Assembly (NCBI GenBank): GCA_003223555.1
Contig: QHVM01000071.1
Span: forward strand, 1-56,888
Length of the DNA stretch: 56,888 nt
Direction of reading: 5' to 3'
Source of the DNA: Acidobacteriota bacterium
GTDB lineage: Bacteria > Acidobacteriota > Vicinamibacteria > Fen-336
Shown: in pieces, positions 5,248 to 30,671 of the stretch
Numbering within the stretch: position 1 is the first letter of the stretch
Layout: each line of letters begins with the position of its first letter
The notes under the pieces: model-generated
Database searches by the model: none
What the model saw: only the letters and a program-made list of their open reading frames with translations
What the model was told of the DNA's origin: nothing
Translations under genes and position numbers: made by a program

Positions 5248-6411
5248 CTACTGCAGCACGACCTTGTCGCCCGGCTTCAGGCCCTCCAGCACCTCGGCCT
5301 TGACCCCGTTGGAGATCCCGACCTTCACCGGCACCTTGCGGCGACCGTTTTCGCCCTTGGGGTCGGGCACCTCGACGGTGGTCTTCCGGTCCTTGTCATA
5401 GATCACCGCCGAGTCGGGGACGAGGAGCACGCTCTTCTTCTCTTCGCGGATGATCTCGGCATTGGCGCTCATGTTGGCCTTCAGCTCCCCGCCCGGGTTG
5501 TCGATCGAGACCCGCACCTCGAAGGTGGTGACGTTGTCCTTCTCCTTGCCGAAGGGAGAGATCTTGGTCACCTTGCCCTCGAATTTCTTGTCCTTGAAGG
5601 ACTCCACCGTGATGCGGGCGGGCTGGCCGAGGTAGACCTTGCCGATGTCCGCCTCGTCCACCTTCCCGAGCACGTACACGCGGGTGACGTCGCCCAGCGT
5701 CATGATGAGGGTGGCCTGGGAGCCGAGGACCAGGATCGAGCTGACCGCGTCGCCCACCTCGACGTCGCGGGACAGGACGAGGCCGTTCATGGGGCTCACG
5801 ATCGTCGAGTTGCGCAGGTCGGTGTCGGCGCGCTCGACGGTGGCCTGGGCCCGGGCGACCTCCGCCTGGTTGACCGACACGTTGCTCTGGGCCGCGTGCT
5901 GCTTGTTGAGGGCCAGCTCGTACTCCTTCTGGGCGTCCTCGAGCACGTTGGTGGAGATGAGTCCCTGCTCGTAGAGCCGGCGGGCGCGCTCGGCGGCCGA
6001 CTTCAGGAACGGCAGGTCGGGGCCCTCGGCCTCGACCTTCGTCCGCTGGAGGGCCGCCTGGGCCGAGAGCAACTGTGCCCGCGCTTCCCGCAGCTGGGCC
6101 TGCAGCGTCTCCTTGTCCAGGTCCACGAGCAACTGCCCCTCCCGGACGGTGTCGCCGTAGTCGGCGTACAGCTTCTTGACGATGCCGCTCGCCTTCGACT
6201 TGATCTCCACCTTGGAGAGGGGCTGGATCTTCCCCGTCGCCACCACCGAGCGCGCGATGTCGCCCTTCTCCGCCGTGGCGAGCTTCGAGGGATCGATCTC
6301 GGTCTTCGACCGGGACGCCGAGACGATCCCCACGATCGCCAGCACCACCCCCAGAGCGCCGGCACCCAGGTAGATGCGCCGCCGCCGACGCTTGCCATTG
6401 CTTTCGGTCAT
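5248..6411 (-). CDS. MacA-like periplasmic adaptor (membrane fusion protein)
   Basis: A 387-residue adaptor. A basic N-terminus and one membrane anchor (IYLGAGALGVVLAIVGIVSA) come first. Next is a lipoyl-like half-motif (VATGKIQPLSKVEIKSKASG), a long alpha-helical hairpin (residues about 85-190, rich in Ala, Gln and Glu), the second lipoyl half (STIVSPMNGLVLSRDVEVGD), and beta-barrel and membrane-proximal domains. Such adaptors link an inner-membrane ABC or RND transporter to an outer-membrane exit duct. I chose the ATG at 6411, preceded by a GGGGGG tract 8-13 bases upstream, over an in-frame TTG at 6441. It is the first gene of the adaptor-permease-permease operon. No TolC-like gene is nearby. 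Confidence 0.88.
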   Translation of the reverse strand: MTESNGKRRRRRIYLGAGALGVVLAIVGIVSASRSKTEIDPSKLATAEKGDIARSVVATGKIQPLSKVEIKSKASGIVKKLYADYGDTVREGQLLVDLDKETLQAQLREARAQLLSAQAALQRTKVEAEGPDLPFLKSAAERARRLYEQGLISTNVLEDAQKEYELALNKQHAAQSNVSVNQAEVARAQATVERADTDLRNSTIVSPMNGLVLSRDVEVGDAVSSILVLGSQATLIMTLGDVTRVYVLGKVDEADIGKVYLGQPARITVESFKDKKFEGKVTKISPFGKEKDNVTTFEVRVSIDNPGGELKANMSANAEIIREEKKSVLLVPDSAVIYDKDRKTTVEVPDPKGENGRRKVPVKVGISNGVKAEVLEGLKPGDKVVLQ

Positions 6412-6487
6412 TTTCTTGGACCCCCCCAGACGGCGCCGCAAGCGTAAACGCTGCCGGGAAGCAAAGGTTCCCGAAATGCAGGCGTGC

Positions 6488-7024
6488 TCAGGGTTTGCGG
6501 GCCACGACGGCCGCCAGGTGTCGTCCTTCGATGAGGCCGTCGCGCTCGCGCACGATGGTCATGGGCCGCAGGCGCTTTTGCAACTCCCCGTGCTTCAGCA
6601 AGAAATCGGGATGCCGGGGCTTGCCGAGCCGGGCCTGCTCCACCGTGAACGTCTCATAGAAGAGGAGGCCGCCGGGGGCGACGGCGCGGACGAGAGCAGG
6701 GAAAAGAGGCCGGTGGAGGTAGTGGCTGACGACGACCAGGTCGAAGGCCTCCCGGCCCAGGTCCGCCTCTCCGGTCTCCAGGTCGACGATCCGGGCCTCC
6801 ACGGTGAGGCGCCGGCGGGCGGCCTCGGCGCGAAGCCCTTCGAGCGCTCGCGGGTCCCGGTCGACGGCCGTCACGGCCAGGCCGCGCTCGGCCAGGAAGA
6901 GCGCATGACGGCCCCGGCCGCAGGCGACGTCGAGAGCGCGGCCGGGGCGGGGAATCAGGTCGGCGTTGACGAGGAGCCAGGCCGAAGGCGGGAGGTCGAG
7001 GGGGTCAGGGGCGTCCGCGGTCAC
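6488..7024 (-). CDS. Class I SAM-dependent methyltransferase, TehB-like
   Basis: A 178-residue cytosolic methyltransferase. Motif I reads ALDVACGRGRHALFLAERG (residues about 30-48), followed by the acidic end of beta 2 (VTAVDRDP) and motif IV (FDLVVVSHYLHRPLFP). The layout matches the small TehB/tellurite-resistance-like group, which methylates small electrophiles or metalloids, but substrate cannot be inferred. Translation appears to start at a GTG. It lies 19 bases downstream of a small membrane-protein gene on the same strand and 76 bases upstream of the adaptor operon. Co-transcription with the small gene is likely. Confidence 0.78.
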   Translation of the reverse strand: MTADAPDPLDLPPSAWLLVNADLIPRPGRALDVACGRGRHALFLAERGLAVTAVDRDPRALEGLRAEAARRRLTVEARIVDLETGEADLGREAFDLVVVSHYLHRPLFPALVRAVAPGGLLFYETFTVEQARLGKPRHPDFLLKHGELQKRLRPMTIVRERDGLIEGRHLAAVVARKP

Positions 7025-7043
7025 GCCCCCAGGATAGAGCGTC

Positions 7044-7265
7044 CTACAGGGCGCGGTTCGTTTCCGCGGCGCGAGCCATCCGCTCCGACGACGGAGCGTG
7101 GGTGATGAAGCCCACCGCTCCCGCCACCATCACCGCCAGCGTGATCGCGAACGCGAGGTCGCGACCGACCTCCAGCGCCTTGTCCCTCGTCGAGAGCGCC
7201 GCGCCGTAGCGCTCGGTCCACGCCAGCGTCGTTCCCTGGATCCGCATCGTGCTCGGGGTCGCCAT
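7044..7265 (-). CDS. Small single-helix membrane protein, unknown function
   Basis: A 73-residue protein starting at an ATG with a good GGAGG site 9 bases upstream. The N-terminal half is hydrophilic (MATPSTMRIQGTTLAWTERY). The middle contains one hydrophobic segment (LAFAITLAVMVAGAVGFITH, residues about 38-57), and the C-terminus is short and charged. I do not recognise a family. It is followed closely by the TehB-like methyltransferase and is divergent from the DUF4013 gene. The ribosome-binding site and clean frame argue that it is real. Confidence 0.5.
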   Translation of the reverse strand: MATPSTMRIQGTTLAWTERYGAALSTRDKALEVGRDLAFAITLAVMVAGAVGFITHAPSSERMARAAETNRAL

Positions 7266-7451
7266 TGGATCGCCTCCGATCTCGGTTTCAGAAGCTGAGA
7301 CGAAGGCCGAGCGGCGAGGGTTGCGTTTATTTTTGTCAATGCGTCGGCGTCCACCGGCTTGGATGATGTCGTCGCCCCCGGTCGCCCCCCGTCGGTTGAC
7401 GCCGCCGCCGCCTCCACGTACTGTCGGCGACGATCCTGACAGGAGGAGGCC

Positions 7452-8189
7452 ATGACTGCGCCGCCCCCGCACCCGCCCTCGCGCGACCTCGACCTCGGGC
7501 AGGCCTTCCGCTTCTTCTTCGAGGACCCCGACTGGGTCAAGAAGATCCTCATCGGCGGCGTGTTCATGCTGCTGTCGACCTTCATCGTGGGCGCCGTCTT
7601 CGTGGCCGGCTACGGCGTGCACCTGCTCCGGCGCGTCGTCCGCGGCGAGCCGCGCCCGCTGCCGGAATGGGAGGAGCTGGGCCGCTTCTTCGGCGACGGC
7701 CTCCGGGCGCTCGGGCTCTACCTCGTCCACCTGGTGGGCGTCGGCCTGGTGCCGGCGGCGTTCGGCTGCCTCATCGCCCTCATGGGCGGCGGCATGGCCG
7801 GTGTCTTCCCGTCGTCGCGCGGCGCGTCTTCCGATGCCGCCGGCGGACTCATCGCCCTGGCCATCATGGGCCTCTACGCGGTGACGTTCCTGCTCATGCT
7901 GCTGCTCGCCCTCTACTTCCCGGCCGCGTTCACGCGATTCGTCGTCCTCGACCGCTTCGGCGCCGGCTTCGAGGTGGCGCAGAACATCGAGTTCATCCGC
8001 CGCAACCTCGGGCGCTACGCCCTCGCCATCGTGGTCTACCTGCTGGCCAACCTGGTGGCCCAGGTCGGCATCATCGCCTGCTGCGTGGGCATCTTCCCGG
8101 CCTCCTTCTGGGCGTTCTGCGTCGCGGCCTGGGCGCTGGGCGAGGTCGCGCGGCGGGACCCGCAGCTCTTCGCGGCCGCCGCTCCCTGA
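7452..8189 (+). CDS. DUF4013 multi-pass membrane protein
   Basis: A 245-residue integral membrane protein. The N-terminus carries the family's short cytosolic lead (LDLGQAFRFFFEDPDWVKKILIGG). A first helix follows, then GYGVHLLRRVVRGEPRPLPEW, a signature that I associate with DUF4013. Several more helices follow, with a further amphipathic region AQNIEFIRRNLGRYALAI. The role of DUF4013 proteins is unknown. The start is supported by an AGGAGG site just before the ATG. The gene is not obviously linked to the ETF-quinone oxidoreductase gene that begins about 20 bases after its stop, though co-transcription is possible. Confidence 0.8.
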   Translation: MTAPPPHPPSRDLDLGQAFRFFFEDPDWVKKILIGGVFMLLSTFIVGAVFVAGYGVHLLRRVVRGEPRPLPEWEELGRFFGDGLRALGLYLVHLVGVGLVPAAFGCLIALMGGGMAGVFPSSRGASSDAAGGLIALAIMGLYAVTFLLMLLLALYFPAAFTRFVVLDRFGAGFEVAQNIEFIRRNLGRYALAIVVYLLANLVAQVGIIACCVGIFPASFWAFCVAAWALGEVARRDPQLFAAAAP

Positions 8190-8211
8190 ACGGCGTGGTA
8201 TGTTGCCGTCC

Positions 8212-9864
8212 ATGATCGTTCCCTCGCGCTACCAGCCTGCCTTGCCGGTCGAGCGCTTCATCCGCGCCGAGCCCCCGGACAAGGAAGCAGTGGCGATGGA
8301 CGTGGTGTTCGTGGGCGGCGGGCCGGCCGGGCTGGCCGGAGCGATCGAGCTGGCGCGGCTGGTGAGGAAGGACCAGGAGGCCGGCGGGAGCCTGGGCCAC
8401 GTGGAGATCGCCGTCCTCGAGAAGGCGGAGACGCTCGGCGCGCATTGCCTGTCGGGCGCGGTCGTCAACCCGGTGGCGCTGCGCGAGCTGTTCCCCGAGC
8501 TGAAGGACGGCGACTTCCCGCTGCGGACGCGCGTGACGAGCGAGCGGGTCTACTTCCTCGGCGCGAGCCGGGCGCTGCGCATGCCCACCCCGCCCACCAT
8601 GCGCAACCACGGCTTCTACATGGCCTCGCTCTGCGAGATCGTGCGCTGGCTCGGCGCGAAGGCCGAGCAGCTCGGCGTGAACATGTTCACTGGCTATCCG
8701 GCCGACGCGCTGCTCGTCGAGGGCGACCGCGTGCGGGGGGTGCGCACGACGGCTTCCGGCTTGAAGCGTGACGGGTCGCCCGGCGGGGGCTACGCGCCTC
8801 CCACCGACATCACGGCCCGCGTCACCGTCCTCGCGGAGGGCACCCGGGGATCGCTCACCCAGGCCTGGCTGGCCTGGCAGCGCATCGGCTCGCCCAACCC
8901 CCAGATCTTCGCCCTCGGGGTGAAGGAGCTGTGGGAGACGAAGAGGCCGCTCGACGCGGTCGTCCACACCCTCGGGTGGCCGCTGCCCGCCGACGCGTTC
9001 GGCGGCAGCTTCATGTACCCGCTGGAGCCGAACCTGGTCGCCCTCGGCCTCGTGGTGGGGCTCGACTACCGCGACGCCGGCCTCGACGTCCACGTCCTGC
9101 TGCAGCGACTGAAGACGCACCCACTCTTCCGGCCGTACCTCGAAGGAGGAGAGCTGGCCGAATGGGGAGCCAAGACGATCCCCGAAGGCGGTTTCCACTC
9201 CCTGCCCGAGCGCCGCCACGGCAGCGGCGTCCTGCTGGTGGGCGACGCCGCCGGTTACGTGGAGGTGGCCTCGCTGAAGGGGATCCACTACGCGATGCAA
9301 TCGGGGATCCTGGCCGCGCGCACGATCTTCGCCGCCCTCAAGCAGCAGGACGTCTCGGCGGCCGGGCTGGCGGCCTACGACCGCGCGGTCGATGCGAGCT
9401 TCATCGTCGAGGACCTCCGGGCCCGGCGGAACATGCGTCTCGTCTTCCAGAAGGCCGGCCTGTACCGGGGGGGCGCGCAGGCGGCGCTCATGACGGTGAC
9501 CGGCGGGGCGTTCCCGAGCCGGCGGATCGCGACCGAGCGCGATGCCGACGTTCCCCGCCGGACGGGCCACGGCGACGGCTTCGTACCCGACCGCAAGCTC
9601 ACCTTCGCCAAGCTGGACGCCGTCTTCAAGGCCGGCAACGCCACCCGCGACGACATCCCGTCCCACCTGATCGTGGGTCGCGACGTTCCGGCCGAGGTCG
9701 CCGAGCTGTACCGGCACATGTGTCCGGCCGGTGTCTACGAGCGACAGGCCGACCGGCTCGTCGTGAACCCGCCCAACTGCGTCGACTGCAAGGCGACCGA
9801 CGTGCTCGGACCGCGATGGACGCCCCGCGAAGGTGGCAGCGGACCGCATTACCGGCGCATGTGA
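8212..9864 (+). CDS. Electron-transfer flavoprotein:quinone oxidoreductase homologue with an altered Fe-S motif
   Basis: A flavoprotein of about 550 residues homologous to ETF-QO, which passes electrons from electron-transfer flavoprotein to membrane quinone. The N-terminal FAD-binding motif reads VFVGGGPAGLAGAIELARL (residues about 31-49). The FAD-linked GVLLVGDAAGYVEVASLKGI segment and the C-terminal ferredoxin-like domain (MCPAGVYE, then NCVDCKATDVLGPRW) are both recognisable. In canonical ETF-QO the last motif is CxxCxxC; here the third cysteine is replaced by Thr, leaving three visible ligands. Two starts are possible, at 8200 and 8212. I chose 8212 because the protein then begins like relatives. 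No etfAB genes are nearby. Confidence 0.85.
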   Translation: MIVPSRYQPALPVERFIRAEPPDKEAVAMDVVFVGGGPAGLAGAIELARLVRKDQEAGGSLGHVEIAVLEKAETLGAHCLSGAVVNPVALRELFPELKDGDFPLRTRVTSERVYFLGASRALRMPTPPTMRNHGFYMASLCEIVRWLGAKAEQLGVNMFTGYPADALLVEGDRVRGVRTTASGLKRDGSPGGGYAPPTDITARVTVLAEGTRGSLTQAWLAWQRIGSPNPQIFALGVKELWETKRPLDAVVHTLGWPLPADAFGGSFMYPLEPNLVALGLVVGLDYRDAGLDVHVLLQRLKTHPLFRPYLEGGELAEWGAKTIPEGGFHSLPERRHGSGVLLVGDAAGYVEVASLKGIHYAMQSGILAARTIFAALKQQDVSAAGLAAYDRAVDASFIVEDLRARRNMRLVFQKAGLYRGGAQAALMTVTGGAFPSRRIATERDADVPRRTGHGDGFVPDRKLTFAKLDAVFKAGNATRDDIPSHLIVGRDVPAEVAELYRHMCPAGVYERQADRLVVNPPNCVDCKATDVLGPRWTPREGGSGPHYRRM

Positions 9865-22733: not shown

Positions 22734-25700
22734 TCAGAACACCTTGAATGCGGTGGCCCTCAGGACCTGGGCGCCCTTCCTCCCCTCGCGGTCGCGGGCC
22801 TGGAAGCCGTAGCCCCAATCGACGGCCAGGAGAAGCCCGTGGGGAAGCACGGTCTCCACACCCGCCCCCGCGCCCAGGTATGGCTTCTCGCGCGGGCCGA
22901 AGCCTGGATCGCGGACGAACGCGCCGTCGAGAAAACCGTCGAGCCGCAGGCGCCGCGCGGCATTCCAGCTCGCGGCGGTGCGCAGGAGAGCTCCGCGGTC
23001 GTAGCGCAGCCCGGCGCTCGGGTAGCCGCGCAGCCGGTTGTCGAAGCCGTCGAAGGTGAAGCGGCTGAAGCGGTCGAGGCCGCGGCCGGCCATCCACGAC
23101 AGCCGGGCCTGGCCGACCGCCCGCGGCGAGAACACGAACGACCGGCCGGCGTCCGCGCCGTACCGCTGGAAGCCGATCGCCTGCGGGCCGAACTCCGGAT
23201 TGCCCGTGAATCCCCAGGCCGGCCAGCGCTGGCGCCGCGCGTAGCCCCACCAGAGGGACGCCGACCACGGCCCCTGCTGCGCCTCGAGGGCGAGGCGCAG
23301 GCCGTGCACGGGCGTGCTCGCGGGGGGCGCGAAGGCCGGGTCGGCGAAGCCCGCCCGGCGGAAGCGCGTGTAGCCCAGCTCGTAGTCGGCCCGCGCCCGC
23401 CAGCGCGGGCCGAGCGGGCGGAGCAGGCCGAGCGTGAGCCGGGCCGGCCGCTGGCGCACGTCCTCGGCGTAGACCTCGACGCCTTCGCGGAACGAGCGGT
23501 CGTTGTACTCCACGAAGGTCGCAAAGCCCGTGCCGTGGAGCTGCAGCCGGGTACCGCCCAGCGACGGCACGGCGAAGGCCGCCTGGGCGAAGGCACCGCC
23601 ACAGAACGCGTTGACCTGCGCGCCCGTGCCGAGGAAGTCGAAGTCGACGTAGCTCAGCGCCGCGAACGGCAGCGGATGGTCGATGTCGGGATCGACGAGC
23701 ACGCCCGCGGCGATCGTCCGCACCCGCTGCGCCTTGCCCGCCGCCACCCTTTGCGTGCCCGGACCCGGAACGTTCCCGGGCTCGACCGGCTTGCCGATGC
23801 GCCGGAGGTACCGGAAGCCCTCCGGCGTCTCCTGCATCATCACCGCAGGCGACGCGTGGGCGGCGGCGAGCCGGGCCGCGAAGCCGGCCGGGTTCGGCTC
23901 GTGCTGCGCGAGCGTGAGCACGCGGTGGATCGGCGTGCGGTAGCCGGCGCCGGCGTAGACCTGGTGCGCCTCCGACCGCCCGAGCAGCCACGCCATGCGG
24001 CCGCCGGCCTCGACGGGGACGAACTCGTCCTCCTGCTGGGCGGAGATGATCGCGCCCCGCAGGGAGGTCTGGCTCGCGGCGACCCGGAGCATCGCGAAGC
24101 TGTCGGCGTCGATCCAGACCCGGCCCCGGAAGAGCGACCGTCCCTCCGCCCTCGGCTCGAAGGCCAGCACGTAGGCGTCCCGGCCGCGCTCCTTCTCCCG
24201 GCCCTCCAGGTGATAGCGGTAGACCTCGCTGAGCGAGATCGCGAGGGGCGGTTCGCTCACCCTCTCCGGCTCGACGATGGGCAGGCGCGGCACGCCATCC
24301 TTCTCCGTCTCGTAGTCGAGGCCGTTGAGCCGGATGTGGCGCTGCTCGACCTCCGAGACCCCCGGCGCCTCATAGATGACCGTCTCCGAGCTGATCGTCA
24401 TCGGCGCATCCAGGCCGGGCACCTGGAAGCTGATGACCATCGTGCCCGACGCGATGAGGCTCCGCACCTGCCGGCGCTGGCGGGCGGCGGCGGCCTGGTG
24501 GCGGGCGATGACTTCCTCGACGGTCAGGCTCCTCTGCCCCGTGACGTCTACCGCGGAGATGAAGCGGCCCTCGTCGGCGCCGCTCCAGCCGGCGATGCGC
24601 AGCAGGAAGGTCCGGTCCACGCCCGGCAGCTCCGCGTGGGGGCCGAGGGCCGCCGGGAACGTCTCGCCGGGCGCGGCGCCCGGGTCGAGCGGCCGGACCT
24701 CGATCCGCATCGCGCCGGGCGCGACCGAGACCGCCCGCAGCGGCGCGTAGGGGTCCACGAGAGCGATCGCCTCCAGCGTTCGCGGATGGAGGAAGACCCG
24801 GCTCGTGCAGGCTTCGGCGGTTGATGGCCGCGCTGGCTCGCACATGATGCGGACCTGCCCCAGCGGGCTGAGGCCCGCCGGTAGCAGCTCGCCCAGGCGG
24901 GCCATCGCCAGCACCAGGGCCGGATCCACGGCGGGGGCCAGCACACGCTCCCCTGCGGAGGCCGTGGTGAGCGAGAGCAGGGCCGGGATCGACGGCGAGC
25001 CCTCGAAGCGGCGCCAGACGGGAACTCCGGCCATGTCGGCCGGGAGCGGGCGGTTGGCGCCCGCCACGACGAAGTCGATGTACGCCCCGAGGCCGCGCTG
25101 CCACAACTGCGGCCAGGCCGGCGCCTTTGCCTCCAGACCGAGCAGGATCGACGGCTGTTGCGAGCGCAACTCGGTGGCCCGCGTCTTCAGGCGGAAGACG
25201 TCTTCCTCGACGCTGTCGCCGGCCGCTCTCAGCAGGAGATCCGTCTGCGCGCCACGCTCGCGCAGGCGGCTCAGCAGGTCCACCGGCCACTCCGCGCCCG
25301 GCGCGGCCGGCATCACCACCTCGACTCCGGCGAGCCGGTCTCCCGTGCCCAGCAGCGCCTCGGCCTGCTCCGTGGTCGCCTCCCAGGCCACGCATTCCGC
25401 GCACGGCGGCCCGACCGCAGTCGCCGCCGCGGCCGGCCGGCCGAGAAGGAGCGCGAGCAGGAGCGAGCCGGCCGCCTTCGTAGCGGCAGCCTTGACGGCG
25501 GCCTGGTGACGCGACCGCCGGTAGTCGCGCCAGCGCACCCAGGCCTCCGTGCCGGAGAAGCAGACCGCCATCCAGCCGATGCCGGCCACGAAGCCGGCCA
25601 CCACGTCGCTGAAGTAGTGCACGCCGAGGTAGATCCGGCTGGCCCCGATGGCGAGGGCCGACAACCCGCACGCGAGCACGGCGGCCAGGCGCCACGCGCG

Positions 25701-26234
25701 CTGATGCTCGATCGTGAAATAGACGACGTAGGCCAGGCTGCCGAAGAAGAGCACCGACCCCATGGCGTGGCCGCTCGGGAAGCTGTAGCCGCTGGCCAGG
25801 ACCAGCGAGCTGGCGGGGCGCGCGCGATGGAAATAGACCTTGAGCAGCCCGTTCAGCAGCGCGCCGCCGGCCATGGCCGCCGCGAAGGCGTAGAGCCGGC
25901 GATGCGACTTGATCTTCAGCAGCCAGAGGATGACGAGCACGGAGAGCGGGGCCATGATCTCCAGCCGGCCGAAGAGGGAGATCGCGATCATGAGCATGGT
26001 CATCCGCGGCGAGACGAGCCGGTGGGCGATCTGCTGGGCCTGGAAGTCGGCGTGGCGGATGTTCTGCGTCGAGAACACCCAGTCGGCGATCCGGTCGAAG
26101 ACGGCCGCGGCGGCCACCGCGAGGAAGAAGCCGACGACGAGGTGGAGGCCGAGGTAGCCCTCGGGGGAGAGCCAGCGCCGGTAGAAGCTGGGCCGCGGGG
26201 CGGGTTGGGCGGCGGCGCTCACGGCGTCGGGCAT
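22734..26234 (-). CDS. PAP2 phosphatase fused in frame to a predicted periplasmic/outer-membrane protein
   Basis: A continuous frame of 1166 residues. Residues 1-245 are a complete membrane PAP2 phosphatase with all three signature motifs: KVYFHRARP (KX6RP), YSFPSGHAM (PSGH) and SRIYLGVHYFSD (SRX5HX3D). Next comes a signal-peptide-like segment (AAGSLLLALLLGRPAAAA, about residues 254-272). After this lies an alpha/beta region of unknown type (to about 520), a LolA-like beta region with VWIDADSFAMLRVAASQ, and a barrel-like C-terminus ending in AFKVF. No ATG, GTG or TTG lies before the internal signal. The parts may be cut by signal peptidase, or a stop and start were lost. The 5' end overlaps the kinase-like lipoprotein gene by 16 bases. 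Confidence 0.75.
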   Translation of the reverse strand: MPDAVSAAAQPAPRPSFYRRWLSPEGYLGLHLVVGFFLAVAAAAVFDRIADWVFSTQNIRHADFQAQQIAHRLVSPRMTMLMIAISLFGRLEIMAPLSVLVILWLLKIKSHRRLYAFAAAMAGGALLNGLLKVYFHRARPASSLVLASGYSFPSGHAMGSVLFFGSLAYVVYFTIEHQRAWRLAAVLACGLSALAIGASRIYLGVHYFSDVVAGFVAGIGWMAVCFSGTEAWVRWRDYRRSRHQAAVKAAATKAAGSLLLALLLGRPAAAATAVGPPCAECVAWEATTEQAEALLGTGDRLAGVEVVMPAAPGAEWPVDLLSRLRERGAQTDLLLRAAGDSVEEDVFRLKTRATELRSQQPSILLGLEAKAPAWPQLWQRGLGAYIDFVVAGANRPLPADMAGVPVWRRFEGSPSIPALLSLTTASAGERVLAPAVDPALVLAMARLGELLPAGLSPLGQVRIMCEPARPSTAEACTSRVFLHPRTLEAIALVDPYAPLRAVSVAPGAMRIEVRPLDPGAAPGETFPAALGPHAELPGVDRTFLLRIAGWSGADEGRFISAVDVTGQRSLTVEEVIARHQAAAARQRRQVRSLIASGTMVISFQVPGLDAPMTISSETVIYEAPGVSEVEQRHIRLNGLDYETEKDGVPRLPIVEPERVSEPPLAISLSEVYRYHLEGREKERGRDAYVLAFEPRAEGRSLFRGRVWIDADSFAMLRVAASQTSLRGAIISAQQEDEFVPVEAGGRMAWLLGRSEAHQVYAGAGYRTPIHRVLTLAQHEPNPAGFAARLAAAHASPAVMMQETPEGFRYLRRIGKPVEPGNVPGPGTQRVAAGKAQRVRTIAAGVLVDPDIDHPLPFAALSYVDFDFLGTGAQVNAFCGGAFAQAAFAVPSLGGTRLQLHGTGFATFVEYNDRSFREGVEVYAEDVRQRPARLTLGLLRPLGPRWRARADYELGYTRFRRAGFADPAFAPPASTPVHGLRLALEAQQGPWSASLWWGYARRQRWPAWGFTGNPEFGPQAIGFQRYGADAGRSFVFSPRAVGQARLSWMAGRGLDRFSRFTFDGFDNRLRGYPSAGLRYDRGALLRTAASWNAARRLRLDGFLDGAFVRDPGFGPREKPYLGAGAGVETVLPHGLLLAVDWGYGFQARDREGRKGAQVLRATAFKVF

Positions 26235-27306
26235 GGCGGCCCGTCGGCGACCTCGGCCACCTTGACCTCGAAGGCCCGGACCCAGCCGTCCAGGTCGCGG
26301 TTGGCGTCGGGCCCCGCCTCGAACTGGGCGAACCCGGCGGCGGCGAAGAGGTCCCGCACCTGCGCCGCGCGAAGCTGCTTCAGCTCCGTGGCGAGGAGCT
26401 TCCGGCCGCCTTCGGAGATCTCGGCCTCGCCGAAGGTCGCGCCGTGATAGGGCAGGGACTTCATGTCCACGCGGCAGGCCTCGCGGTCGGCCCATACCGG
26501 CACCTTCCTCCACGCCTCGAGGTCGAGGGCCAGCGGGCCGAAGGTCGCGCCCACGTCCTGCAGGAACGCGAAGGGCTCGCGGCACTCGCCTCCGGCCTGC
26601 TCCGCTCCGGGCAAGCAGACCAGCCGCTGGTTGGGGGCCTTGTTGTCCCAGTCGGCGAGCAGCACCGCGACGAGGCGCAGGGCGTCTCGCTCGGCCCGGT
26701 TGGCGCCGCCACCCGGATCGATCCGTTCCAGCTCGTACCACGCCCAGCCCGGCGCGCCGTGAGCGGCGATCTTCTTCCCGGGGAACGGCCGCTCGACCGA
26801 GGCGGGCGCGAAGTCGACCGCGCGGTCCTCCCGGCTGAAGAACGCGTCCAGCCACCGGAAGCGCGGCTGGGGATAGGGCGGGCAGCCGAAGCAGCGCACG
26901 CGGGCGACGGCGTACATGAGGTCGGCGCCGAAGCCGAGCGCGGAGAGCAGCCGGGCCGCCGCGACCTCGGTCACCGCCTCGGGGTTGCGATGGCCGTACT
27001 TCACCTTGACGACCTCGCCGCCCGGCAGGACGCAGTAGAACTTCGGGGTCCGCCCGTACGAGCGCCTCAGTTTCCCCCCGGCGGGTTTCGCCGGAAGTCC
27101 ACTTCTCCGATCGGCTGCGGCGGCTCGCGCCAGACGCGCGCCCGGGCCAGCGCGCCGGCCCGCATCGCGTCCGCGCGGTCCGTGGGCAGCGGCAGCGTGT
27201 CGTCCTCCTTGCGCGGCTCGTAGTCGCCGGGCGGCAGCGCCGGCGCGGTGGGATCCCGGGGCGCGCACGCCGACAGGAGCAGGCCGACCAGCAGCACGCC
27301 CCTCAT
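26219..27306 (-). CDS. Lipoprotein with protein-kinase-like residue set, frameshifted near its N-terminus
   Basis: The product would be about 360 residues. The N-terminal frame (27306 to about 27075) has a lipobox (VGLLLSAC, Cys 14). After the GGGGGG run at 27074-27079 this frame stops. Adding one G joins it to the main frame, KLRRSYGRTPKFYCVL onward, ending at 26219. The main domain shows a kinase-like order. First is a strand lysine (EVVKVKYG), then a helix-C-like Glu (VTEVAAARLLSALG). A catalytic loop follows as LLADWDNKAPNQRLV, with D-x-K-x-x-N spacing as in HRDLKPEN, and a DxG motif as FLQDVGATFG. A secreted kinase or pseudokinase is inferred; similarity to a known family was not established. 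Its stop overlaps the PAP2 fusion start. Confidence 0.6.
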
Positions 27307-27347
27307 CTTCCGATCTTATCCCGGTCGCGCGAACCTCCTCGGTGCCC

Positions 27348-27376
27348 TTGACCGTCCGGCGGCGCCACGATAGCTT
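27348..27376 (+). promoter_or_regulatory. Candidate promoter for the TonB-dependent receptor
   Basis: TTGACC (27348-27353), a 17-base spacer, then TAGCTT (27371-27376). The -35 is five of six and the -10 three of six. The start codon at 27396 would be about 13 bases from the expected transcription start, so the leader is very short. A GGAGAG site lies in it. Confidence 0.35.
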
Positions 27377-27395
27377 CGAGTTGTTCCGGAGAGAC

Positions 27396-30300
27396 ATGCC
27401 GCATCCCTCTCGCGTTCGAGCGGCTTGCTCCGCCTGCCTGTTCGCGGCCCTCGCCGCCGCCGCGGCCGCCCAGACGGTCACCGGCACCGTCCAGGGCACC
27501 GTCACCGACCCGAGCGGCGGCGTGCTGCCCGGCGCCACGGTGGTCATCCGCAGCCCGGAGACGGGGCTGGCGCGGACGTTGTCGACCACCGAGAAGGGCT
27601 TCTACAGCGCCCCGTTCCTGCCCATCGGCCGCTACCAGGTGCGCGCTTCACGGGCGGGGTTCGGCACGGCCGTCCGGGACAAGGTCGACGTGCGCCTGAA
27701 CGACACCATGGTCGTCGATCTCGTCCTCGACCCCCGCGTCGCCGAGGTGGTCACGGTCACCGCCGAGCGGCCCCCCATCAACACGACCAACGCCGAGATC
27801 AAGCAGGCCCTGACCGCCGAGCAGATCATCGACAAGCCGACCCTGGCCCAGACCAACGCCTTCCTGAGCCTGGCCGAGACCTTCGCCGGCTTCCAGGAAA
27901 ACCCGACCTCGGGCCAGAACAACCCCACCGCCTCCTCGGGCTCTTCGATCAACTTCGACGGCACGGGGACCCGCGGCGCCACCTTCCAGATCAACGGCGT
28001 CAACAACGACGACTCGTCCGAGAACCAGAACCGTCAGGGAGTGGCCCTGTCGACGATCAAGGAGTTCCAGGTCATCACCAATACCTACAGCGCAGAGTTC
28101 GGCCGGGGCTACGGGGCGGTGGTGCTGGTCCAGACCAAGCAGGGCACGAATCGGTTCGCGGGGGACGTCTACGGGTACTTCAACGACAGCCACTGGAACG
28201 CCAAGCGCTTCTTCGACCGGGGCAAACCCGACAACCAGCGCAAGCAGTACGGCTTCACCCTCGGCTTCCCGGTCATGAAGAACAGGCTGTTCGGCTTCGT
28301 GAGCTTCGACCAGACCCGGCGGGACGGGACGCAGAGCTACACCCGCGACCTCTTCCTGCCCGCCGAGCTGGGAGGGACGCGGCTGACCCGGGGCAACGAC
28401 AGCCCGGCCAACCGGCAGTTCATCGACTCGGTGCTGGGCCGCTTCCCCGCCTCGCTGTCCGCCAACGACCCCCGCAGCCCGCGCACCTACCAGGGGGCGG
28501 TGGGCTTCGACCAGCCCCTCGACGACTACACGGCGCGGATGGACTGGGACCCCACCGCCCGCGACCACGTCTCCGGCCGGGGCCAGTACACCCGGCAGGT
28601 CTTCGACAACGAGGACATCATCGTCGGCGAGGCCACCAAGCAGAACAACCGGCAGATCAACTACGGCCTGACCTGGACCCACCTGTTCTCGGCCCGGACG
28701 GTGGGCGAGTTCCGCTACGGGCTGGGCATCCGCGACACCAACGTCGACATCAAGGCCGGCAACGACACCCCCATCGTCCGCTTCGCCGGCACCCCGGTGT
28801 CCGGCTCGATCATCGGCAACGCGGGCGGGTTCCCCATCCACCGCGACCAGCGGGACAACCAGCTCGTCTACAACGTCTCCAGCCTGCTCGGCGGCGCCCA
28901 CGGCTTGAAGGCCGGGACCGACGTCCGCTTCTCGAGCCTGGACGACCTGGCCGACAACTTCTCCCGCGGATTCTGGAGCTTCGGCGCCACCTGCGGGGGG
29001 GTGAGCTATCCCAGCTCCTACGCCGCCTTCCTCGACGGCTGCGTCACGACGTTCCAGAAGGGCTACGGCAACTTCTTCCTCGAGAATCGGCTGAAGGAAT
29101 ACAACGTCTACGCCGAGGACGACTGGAAGGTGAGGCCGAGCCTGACCCTGAACCTCGGCCTGCGCTACGAGTACGTGGAGGCGCCGAAGGAAAAGGAAGG
29201 ACGGCTGGACTACGCATACGGAGCCGACAAGGACAACGTCGAGCCGCGGCTCGGGTTCGCATGGTCTCCGGGCTGGAGCCACGGGGTGCTGGGGCGGATC
29301 GCGGGCGGGGCGGGCAACGCCTCGATCCGCGGCGGCTACGGCGTCTACCACGGCCGCGTCTTCCAGTCGATCTTCTCCCAGACGGGGGCCAACGTCCGCT
29401 TCAACCCCCCGAACGCGATCTTCCTGACCTTCACCAACAGCCTGAACGTGGGCGACCCCACCGGCGGCTTCGTGTTCCGGCCGGGGCCCCAGACCGCGCG
29501 CCACAGCGAGACCCTCATCGACCCCCGCCTCGAGATGCCCTCCACCCACAAGTGGAACCTCACATTCGAGCGCAAGATGCCCTGGAGCTCCAGCCTGCGG
29601 CTCACCTACAGCGGCACCCGCGGGCTCGGCCTGCTGCGCTACAGCCTCGACAACCTGCCCGTGTCGCCGCTGGCCGGCGGGATCGTGGTCGTCGACCATC
29701 CCAACAACGCGCCCGCGGCCGGCTTCCCCGACCTCCGGGGGATCAAGATCGACAGGATCGCCAACGACTTCCAATGCGCCGGAACCGCATTCCTGCCCGG
29801 GATCAACCCCAACGCCGCCTGCCCCGTGCCGGTGCCCATCGCCAACGACGAGGTCAGCCTCCGCGTGCCCCGCACCAACGAGCGCCGGCCCGACCCCCGT
29901 TTCACCACCAACCTGGTGGTGAGCAACGGAGCCAACAGCTGGTACCACGGCCTGCAGGTGGAGTGGCTGAAGCGCTTGAGCGGCGGCCTCCGCTTCGAGG
30001 TCGCCTACACCTGGAGCAAGGCCATCGACGACACCTCGGAGGCCACCTTCGTGGGCGCGGGTGACTCGAACATCCTCGGCCCCGACCGGCGCTTCGCGCG
30101 CGGGCTGTCGCGCTTCGACACCCGCCACCGGCTCGCGCTCAATGGGACCTGGCGGCTGCCGATCTTCCGCGATCGGACGGACTCCTTCGGGAAGGTATTC
30201 GGCGGCTGGCAGCTGGCGGCGGTGCTGAAGATCTCCTCCGGCACGCCCTTCACCGTCATCGACACCGGCACGGGCGACATCAACTTCGACGGCTTCTCGG

Positions 30301-30671
30301 AGAACCGCCCGGTGATCCTCGACCCGTCGATCCTCTACCGGACGGTGGACGACCGCGACCACGCCACCGAGCGGCTTCCCCGCACCGCCTTCCGGCGGGC
30401 GAACTTCCAGGATCTGGGGGGCGACATCGTCGGCCGGAACACGTTCTTCGGCGACGGCGTGCGGAACCTGGACATCGGGATCTACAAGTCGTTCGCCACG
30501 GTGGGCGATCAGCGCCTGAGCGTGCGCCTGGAGCTGTTCAACGCCTTCAACCGCGCGCAGTTCGGCTTTCCCAGCGCGGACCTGGCCGCCAGCAACTTCG
30601 GCCAGATCGTCGGCACCGCCGGCGCCTACAACCCGCGCACGGTGCAGATCACGCTCAGATACTCGTTCTAG
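27396..30671 (+). CDS. TonB-dependent receptor with N-terminal carboxypeptidase-like domain (Oar type)
   Basis: A 1091-residue outer-membrane protein. Signal peptide (LFAALAAAAAAQ) to about residue 27, then a carboxypeptidase-regulatory-like beta domain (GTVTDPSGGVLPGATVVI, residues about 34-115). A plug domain with RGATFQINGVNNDD and YSAEFGRGYGAVVLVQTKQG (about 205-255) follows. The long 22-strand-type barrel ends in TVQITLRYSF, with the terminal Phe beta-signal. The layout matches the Oar-like receptors abundant in Acidobacteria, which are thought to import oligosaccharides or other large molecules. No obvious TonB box was seen. It is divergent from the kinase-like lipoprotein gene, with 89 bases between. 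The substrate is unknown. Confidence 0.9.
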   Translation: MPHPSRVRAACSACLFAALAAAAAAQTVTGTVQGTVTDPSGGVLPGATVVIRSPETGLARTLSTTEKGFYSAPFLPIGRYQVRASRAGFGTAVRDKVDVRLNDTMVVDLVLDPRVAEVVTVTAERPPINTTNAEIKQALTAEQIIDKPTLAQTNAFLSLAETFAGFQENPTSGQNNPTASSGSSINFDGTGTRGATFQINGVNNDDSSENQNRQGVALSTIKEFQVITNTYSAEFGRGYGAVVLVQTKQGTNRFAGDVYGYFNDSHWNAKRFFDRGKPDNQRKQYGFTLGFPVMKNRLFGFVSFDQTRRDGTQSYTRDLFLPAELGGTRLTRGNDSPANRQFIDSVLGRFPASLSANDPRSPRTYQGAVGFDQPLDDYTARMDWDPTARDHVSGRGQYTRQVFDNEDIIVGEATKQNNRQINYGLTWTHLFSARTVGEFRYGLGIRDTNVDIKAGNDTPIVRFAGTPVSGSIIGNAGGFPIHRDQRDNQLVYNVSSLLGGAHGLKAGTDVRFSSLDDLADNFSRGFWSFGATCGGVSYPSSYAAFLDGCVTTFQKGYGNFFLENRLKEYNVYAEDDWKVRPSLTLNLGLRYEYVEAPKEKEGRLDYAYGADKDNVEPRLGFAWSPGWSHGVLGRIAGGAGNASIRGGYGVYHGRVFQSIFSQTGANVRFNPPNAIFLTFTNSLNVGDPTGGFVFRPGPQTARHSETLIDPRLEMPSTHKWNLTFERKMPWSSSLRLTYSGTRGLGLLRYSLDNLPVSPLAGGIVVVDHPNNAPAAGFPDLRGIKIDRIANDFQCAGTAFLPGINPNAACPVPVPIANDEVSLRVPRTNERRPDPRFTTNLVVSNGANSWYHGLQVEWLKRLSGGLRFEVAYTWSKAIDDTSEATFVGAGDSNILGPDRRFARGLSRFDTRHRLALNGTWRLPIFRDRTDSFGKVFGGWQLAAVLKISSGTPFTVIDTGTGDINFDGFSENRPVILDPSILYRTVDDRDHATERLPRTAFRRANFQDLGGDIVGRNTFFGDGVRNLDIGIYKSFATVGDQRLSVRLELFNAFNRAQFGFPSADLAASNFGQIVGTAGAYNPRTVQITLRYSF

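Follow-up and report, generated by a model that had tools for sequence, protein, structure and literature searches.

It is likely that a gene on the minus strand of the window (the whole stretch of 56,888 nucleotides analysed) belongs to a new extracytoplasmic, kinase-like PKL family resembling CotH and Fam20, that the family functions in an envelope kinase–phosphatase module, and that the window copy has recently been disrupted or misassembled. The family is large, unnamed and of the Acidobacteriota; it is new within the known kinase superfamily and unusual in its location, and does not represent a new fold. The earlier sequence-only reading of this gene as kinase-like is supported, by the structural models and by residue conservation, with respect to fold and active site, and kinase activity is what these features would suggest.

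Layout and state of the window gene

Two minus-strand frames make up the window gene, with a lipobox ORF followed, after a frame change, by the kinase-like domain. The first frame (27067..27306; ATG at 27306, stop near 27067) encodes the lipoprotein signal MRGVLLVGLLLSAC and the N-terminal region. The lipobox LSAC occupies residues 11-14 of the window protein, and the lipoprotein test recognised a signal peptide with lipobox, as had been read from the DNA; a lipobox is also found in the intact relatives L010 and L032. The second frame (P0001, 26219..27094, minus strand, 291 residues, stop at 26221-26219) encodes the protein-kinase-like domain, and its translation contains EVVKVKYG, VTEVAAARLL, WDNKAPNQ and QDVGATFG, so that the Lys, Glu, D-x-K-x-x-N and D-x-G motifs are all present in the order originally described. 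Downstream on the same strand lies a PAP2-domain gene (22734..26234, ATG at 26234; PAP2 domain at about 25889-25548, Pfam PAP2 E 7.5e-17). The claimed overlap with this gene is real, since the kinase stop at 26219 and the PAP2 ATG at 26234 give an overlap of 16 nt that is kept in the intact relative L032. The PAP2 domain shares its frame with about 600 further residues and with a C-terminal stretch resembling an outer-membrane beta-barrel; coupling a phosphatase of the inner membrane to a barrel would make for an odd topology. The divergent neighbour on the plus strand (27342-30671) resembles a TonB-type outer-membrane receptor with a carboxypeptidase-like domain.

The same-genus relatives L010 and L032, which agree over the region compared and probably represent the same species, each carry the gene uninterrupted, in a frame that spans 378 codons from stop to stop. 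In DNA alignment with these two, the window copy is about 40 nt shorter where the N-terminal part meets the core, at the frame change (27070..27094, minus strand), and this difference indicates that it has been disrupted or misassembled. A simple homopolymer slip was ruled out as the cause since the relatives are about 40 nt longer at this point. The joined frame originally envisaged needs one correction, in that it reflects this shortening of the window copy against its intact same-genus relatives. Comparison of the core frame with L010 gave a dN of 0.17, a dS of 0.69 and a dN/dS of about 0.25, with changes mostly at third positions. Since purifying selection is still visible in the core frame, any damage would be recent. 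Whether the window gene is no more than a pseudogene, with nothing functional locally, appears evenly balanced, and such a state would be compatible with the other explanations considered below. The missing nucleotides and the frame change speak for it, whereas the selection acting on the downstream frame, the presence in the same genome of two further family members whose frames are open (46% and 44% identity), and an assembly artefact as a possible source of the frame change all speak against it.

Extent, fold and active site of the family

No sequence match to Pfam, NCBIfam, PADLOC or the PDB was found for the window protein or with a profile built from 63 sequences, and none of the 63 family members had a meaningful Pfam match; the weak matches listed (ribosomal L29, LSm11 and Nudix) were dismissed as chance. 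Likewise, no description of the family was found in the literature. Relatives of the window protein occur in 11 of 60 near genomes, and the family profile matches 47 genomes in a phylum-wide sample of 396. When 84,980 species genomes were scanned with a narrow pattern, which does not by itself prove absence elsewhere, 34 loci were recovered, all from Acidobacteriota records except for one labelled as a cyanobacterial MAG. The family comprises two subfamilies, both distributed across the Acidobacteriota: subfamily A with eight conserved Cys residues and subfamily B without them. Identity between the subfamilies falls to about 20%, and their profiles match each other at 99.9% probability. Tandem pairs of subfamily A-like genes are present at L061-L064 (around 5600-8400), the second gene being the more divergent (E about 1e-44).

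The alignments comprised 20 to 65 sequences, and residue counts were taken from 65 family members. All of the following motifs lie on the minus strand of the window. The G-R-T-P-K loop between strands 1 and 2, at the position of a nucleotide-binding loop (27041..27055), has its Gly conserved in 62/65 and its Lys in 64/65. The strand-3 Lys, which is the second Lys of VKVKYG (26999..27001), is conserved in 63/65, a figure taken from the conserved-column list of the alignment (L010 reads IKVKYG). It is followed by the helix-C Glu pair (26966..26980), made up of the E of NPE (63/65) and the E of TEV (61/65). In the catalytic loop D-N-K-A-P-N (26630..26647) the Asp is invariant (65/65) and the Lys is found in 62/65. 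The loop Asn, present in the window copy, is kept in 43 of the 65 and replaced by Gln in 21 and by Gly in one. Both the Asp and the Gly of the D-V-G metal-binding motif at the DFG position (26549..26557) are found in all 65. In the 63-sequence alignment the only invariant columns were G137, D234, D264, G266 and G270 (L032 numbering), and four of these five correspond to the catalytic-loop Asp and the D-x-G-x-x-x-G motif. Of the residues on whose conservation the kinase reading had been said to depend, the Lys and Asp are thus conserved, but the Asn varies with Gln. The Gln form (D-x-K-x-x-Q-Q) is seen in L019, L022, L024, L029 and about 17 others, with the remainder of the site kept. Since about a third of the members have Gln at this position, catalysis may differ among them.

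AlphaFold2 models were produced for the window domain (pLDDT 83.3, pTM 0.84) and for an intact orthologue with 63 sequences (pLDDT 91.7, pTM 0.90). For both models, the best 50 matches listed by Foldseek against the PDB were kinases only, and in neither case was the predicted fold unrelated to kinases, in agreement with the kinase-like fold that had been claimed. The best fold match was CtkA (probability 1.00, TM about 0.5), with PI4KIIalpha (4hnd) and HipA also listed. The best 50 of the first search (window model) included Fam20 (4kqa, E 8e-4) and APH, and those of the second (intact orthologue) included Src-family kinases. The better model places the conserved Lys on strand three of the N-lobe and the Glu on the helix that comes next; the Asp is in the loop after a long C-lobe helix, the Asn/Gln lies shortly ahead of the next strand, and the D-x-G comes directly behind the strand after that one, which is overall the order found in kinases. 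Since the order of secondary structure matches, the active-site side chains would be expected to coincide with those of kinases.

Comparison of profiles with the named kinase families gave a weaker signal. HHalign to HipA_C, CotH, PF00454 and APH gave probabilities of 0-11%, and we therefore claim membership in none of these. With the combined profile, the scores for CotH, HipA_C and PF00454 exceeded all 25 block-shuffled controls and that for APH did not, while the subfamily profiles gave a mixed result against such controls. The HipA alignment was in register over the G-x-x-x-K loop (G-x-Q-x-K in HipA), Lys, Glu, D....N and D-x-x, and the CotH alignment over D....N and D-x-x-x-x-F-G. In the reverse direction, the CotH profile PF08757 matched none of the 63 members at E 0.01, and no member was matched by the Pfam Fam20C profile, by PF00454 or by the HipA_C profile PF07804, the last of which also had no match in the window's own genome. 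A placement near the CotH/HipA/PI4K side of the superfamily, as a member of none of these families, would suit the profile alignments.

The extracytoplasmic location proposed for the window protein would extend to the family as a whole. Using a simple signal-peptide rule, an export-like N-terminus was found in 60 of 65 members, with a lipobox in at least 17, whereas the same rule detected 0/17 HipA and 0/18 APH controls and 13/17 CotH proteins of the same phylum. One of the five misses is the window copy, whose signal is encoded in its other frame; by eye, a hydrophobic leader can be made out in two or more of the rest. L027, a distant member, is instead anchored by a transmembrane segment.

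Neighbouring phosphatase and CotH-associated genes

A gene for a metallophosphatase (PF00149), a PLD-like protein (PF13091), a DUF4956/MgtC-like protein or a PAP2 protein was found within the flanking stretches covered at 33 of the 70 kinase-like loci, and at none of 20 random 12-kb stretches from related genomes using the same threshold. The Fisher p of 3e-5 is optimistic since the neighbour models were built from kinase-adjacent genes and the loci are related by descent; five duplicate stretches (L210-L213, L215) were dropped before counting. The metallophosphatase is frequently arranged tail-to-tail with the kinase-like gene (L033-L038, L040, L055), and it also lies alongside one of the two other family members in the window's genome (L256). 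At L038 a metallophosphatase–kinase B–DUF4956–PLD series adjoins a kinase A–metallophosphatase pair.

The window's PAP2 gene has a counterpart in L032 that is 69% identical and has GTG as its start codon. At a further locus, represented twice (L021/L043), a kinase domain and a PAP2 domain occupy a single open frame. The PAP2 domain of this fusion is only weakly similar to, and not orthologous with, that of the window, so the link between kinase and PAP2 appears to have arisen twice. A PAP2 link as a general rule was ruled out, as it is confined to the window, its same-genus relative and this one independent fusion. The PAP2 link of the sequence-only reading thus applies to this genus and to the one fusion, the metallophosphatase being the commoner partner.

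DUF4956 is present at seven of the kinase-like loci, a context shared with CotH that is not by itself a criterion of membership. Several CotH loci of the phylum, examined out of sample (L244, L248, L251 and others), also have DUF4956, PLD-like and metallophosphatase neighbours. Genes for metallophosphatase, DUF4956/MgtC-like and PLD-like proteins cluster repeatedly with either the new kinase-like genes or CotH, at L038 (8487-12076), L044 (1812-5432), L244, L248 and L251. Genes for CotH, polyphosphate polymerase, DUF4956 and DUF4832 have been found to adjoin pel clusters (PMC7112168).

Proposed role and relation to known kinases

We propose that intact members would be exported by Sec as lipoproteins or as soluble periplasmic or membrane-anchored proteins. 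The two-lobed kinase fold would bind metal-nucleotide through the strand-3 Lys, the helix-C Glu and the Asp of D-x-G, and the Asp of D-x-K-x-x-N/Q would then pass phosphate on to a protein or lipid head group of the envelope. The adjoining phosphatase, a metallophosphatase or, in this genus, PAP2, may oppose this reaction or process its product, in a role comparable to that of CotH beside DUF4956 genes. Several points count against this proposal, namely the periplasm, which is thought to hold little ATP, the Gln at the position of the loop Asn, the broken frame of the window copy and the lack of profile homology to any named kinase family that would be significant on its own.

A special case of this proposal is that the family consists of envelope lipid or small-molecule kinases targeting a phospholipid head group, undecaprenol or a sugar, with the PAP2, PLD-like and metallophosphatase neighbours drawing on one shared pool of lipid phosphates. 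This would fit the lipid substrates of PAP2 and PLD-like proteins, the presence of PI4KIIalpha among the best fold matches and the profile signal to PF00454. We nevertheless consider this narrower reading possible but doubtful, since the best fold match, CtkA, is a protein kinase, the neighbours vary between loci, and DUF4956 genes also accompany CotH, which PMC7821199 describes as a Ser/Thr kinase acting on a spore-coat protein.

It is rather unlikely that the kinase fold serves another chemistry, such as the transfer of AMP (as in SelO) or of glutamate (as in SidJ), or that the proteins are ligand-binding envelope pseudokinases. Such a reading would accommodate the replacement of the loop Asn by Gln in 21/65 members and the scarcity of ATP outside the cytoplasm, and other PKL families are known for such transfers. 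However, the Lys, Glu, catalytic Asp and D-x-G are nearly intact family-wide, which would be unusual for a pseudokinase, and the phosphatase neighbours together with the phosphatase fusion suit phosphate chemistry. That the motifs arose by coincidence in a non-kinase lipoprotein, as the lack of Pfam, NCBIfam or PDB sequence matches might suggest, is highly improbable given that two fold searches found kinases only among the best 50 matches listed and that no columns of the family alignment are better conserved than those of the motif residues.

Returning to the proposed kinase–phosphatase module, exported bacterial kinase-fold enzymes are few, and they would have to draw on a phosphate donor available outside the cytoplasm. 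An exported kinase-fold family often found beside phosphatase genes suggests an undescribed envelope phosphorylation system. More speculatively, and with the balance tilted well against it, this may be a dedicated system of the Acidobacteriota in which exported kinases place a mark that metallophosphatases or PAP2 enzymes reverse or process, using as donor either released ATP or an alternative such as polyphosphate. The family, absent from Pfam and NCBIfam, provides a concrete gene set for probing reversible envelope phosphorylation in Gram-negative bacteria, a set resting on a conserved active site, near-universal export signals, recurrent phosphatase neighbours and one phosphatase fusion. 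It also ties this question to the poorly understood CotH-DUF4956 loci.

Among known systems, the PI4KII/PF00454 lipid kinases resemble the family in fold (4hnd in both searches) and in a weak profile signal above shuffles, but the new family consists of bacterial exported proteins. Fam20 and the Golgi casein kinases share the fold (4kqa) and an extracytoplasmic location with conserved Cys residues; the new family is, however, bacterial, and Fam20 was not among the best 50 matches of the second fold search. With CtkA and HipA the likeness lies in the best fold match (CtkA, TM about 0.5) and in the alignment of the G-x-x-x-K loop, Lys, Glu, D....N and D with HipA_C, whereas HipA is cytoplasmic and the new family is exported, and the HipA-coupled domain was not seen in the family. 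CotH differs in that subfamily A of the new family has eight conserved Cys residues and a true CotH is encoded separately in the same genome. It nevertheless shares the kinase fold class, is mostly exported in the phylum (13/17), and at several of its loci adjoins DUF4956, PLD-like and metallophosphatase genes just as the new kinase-like genes do.
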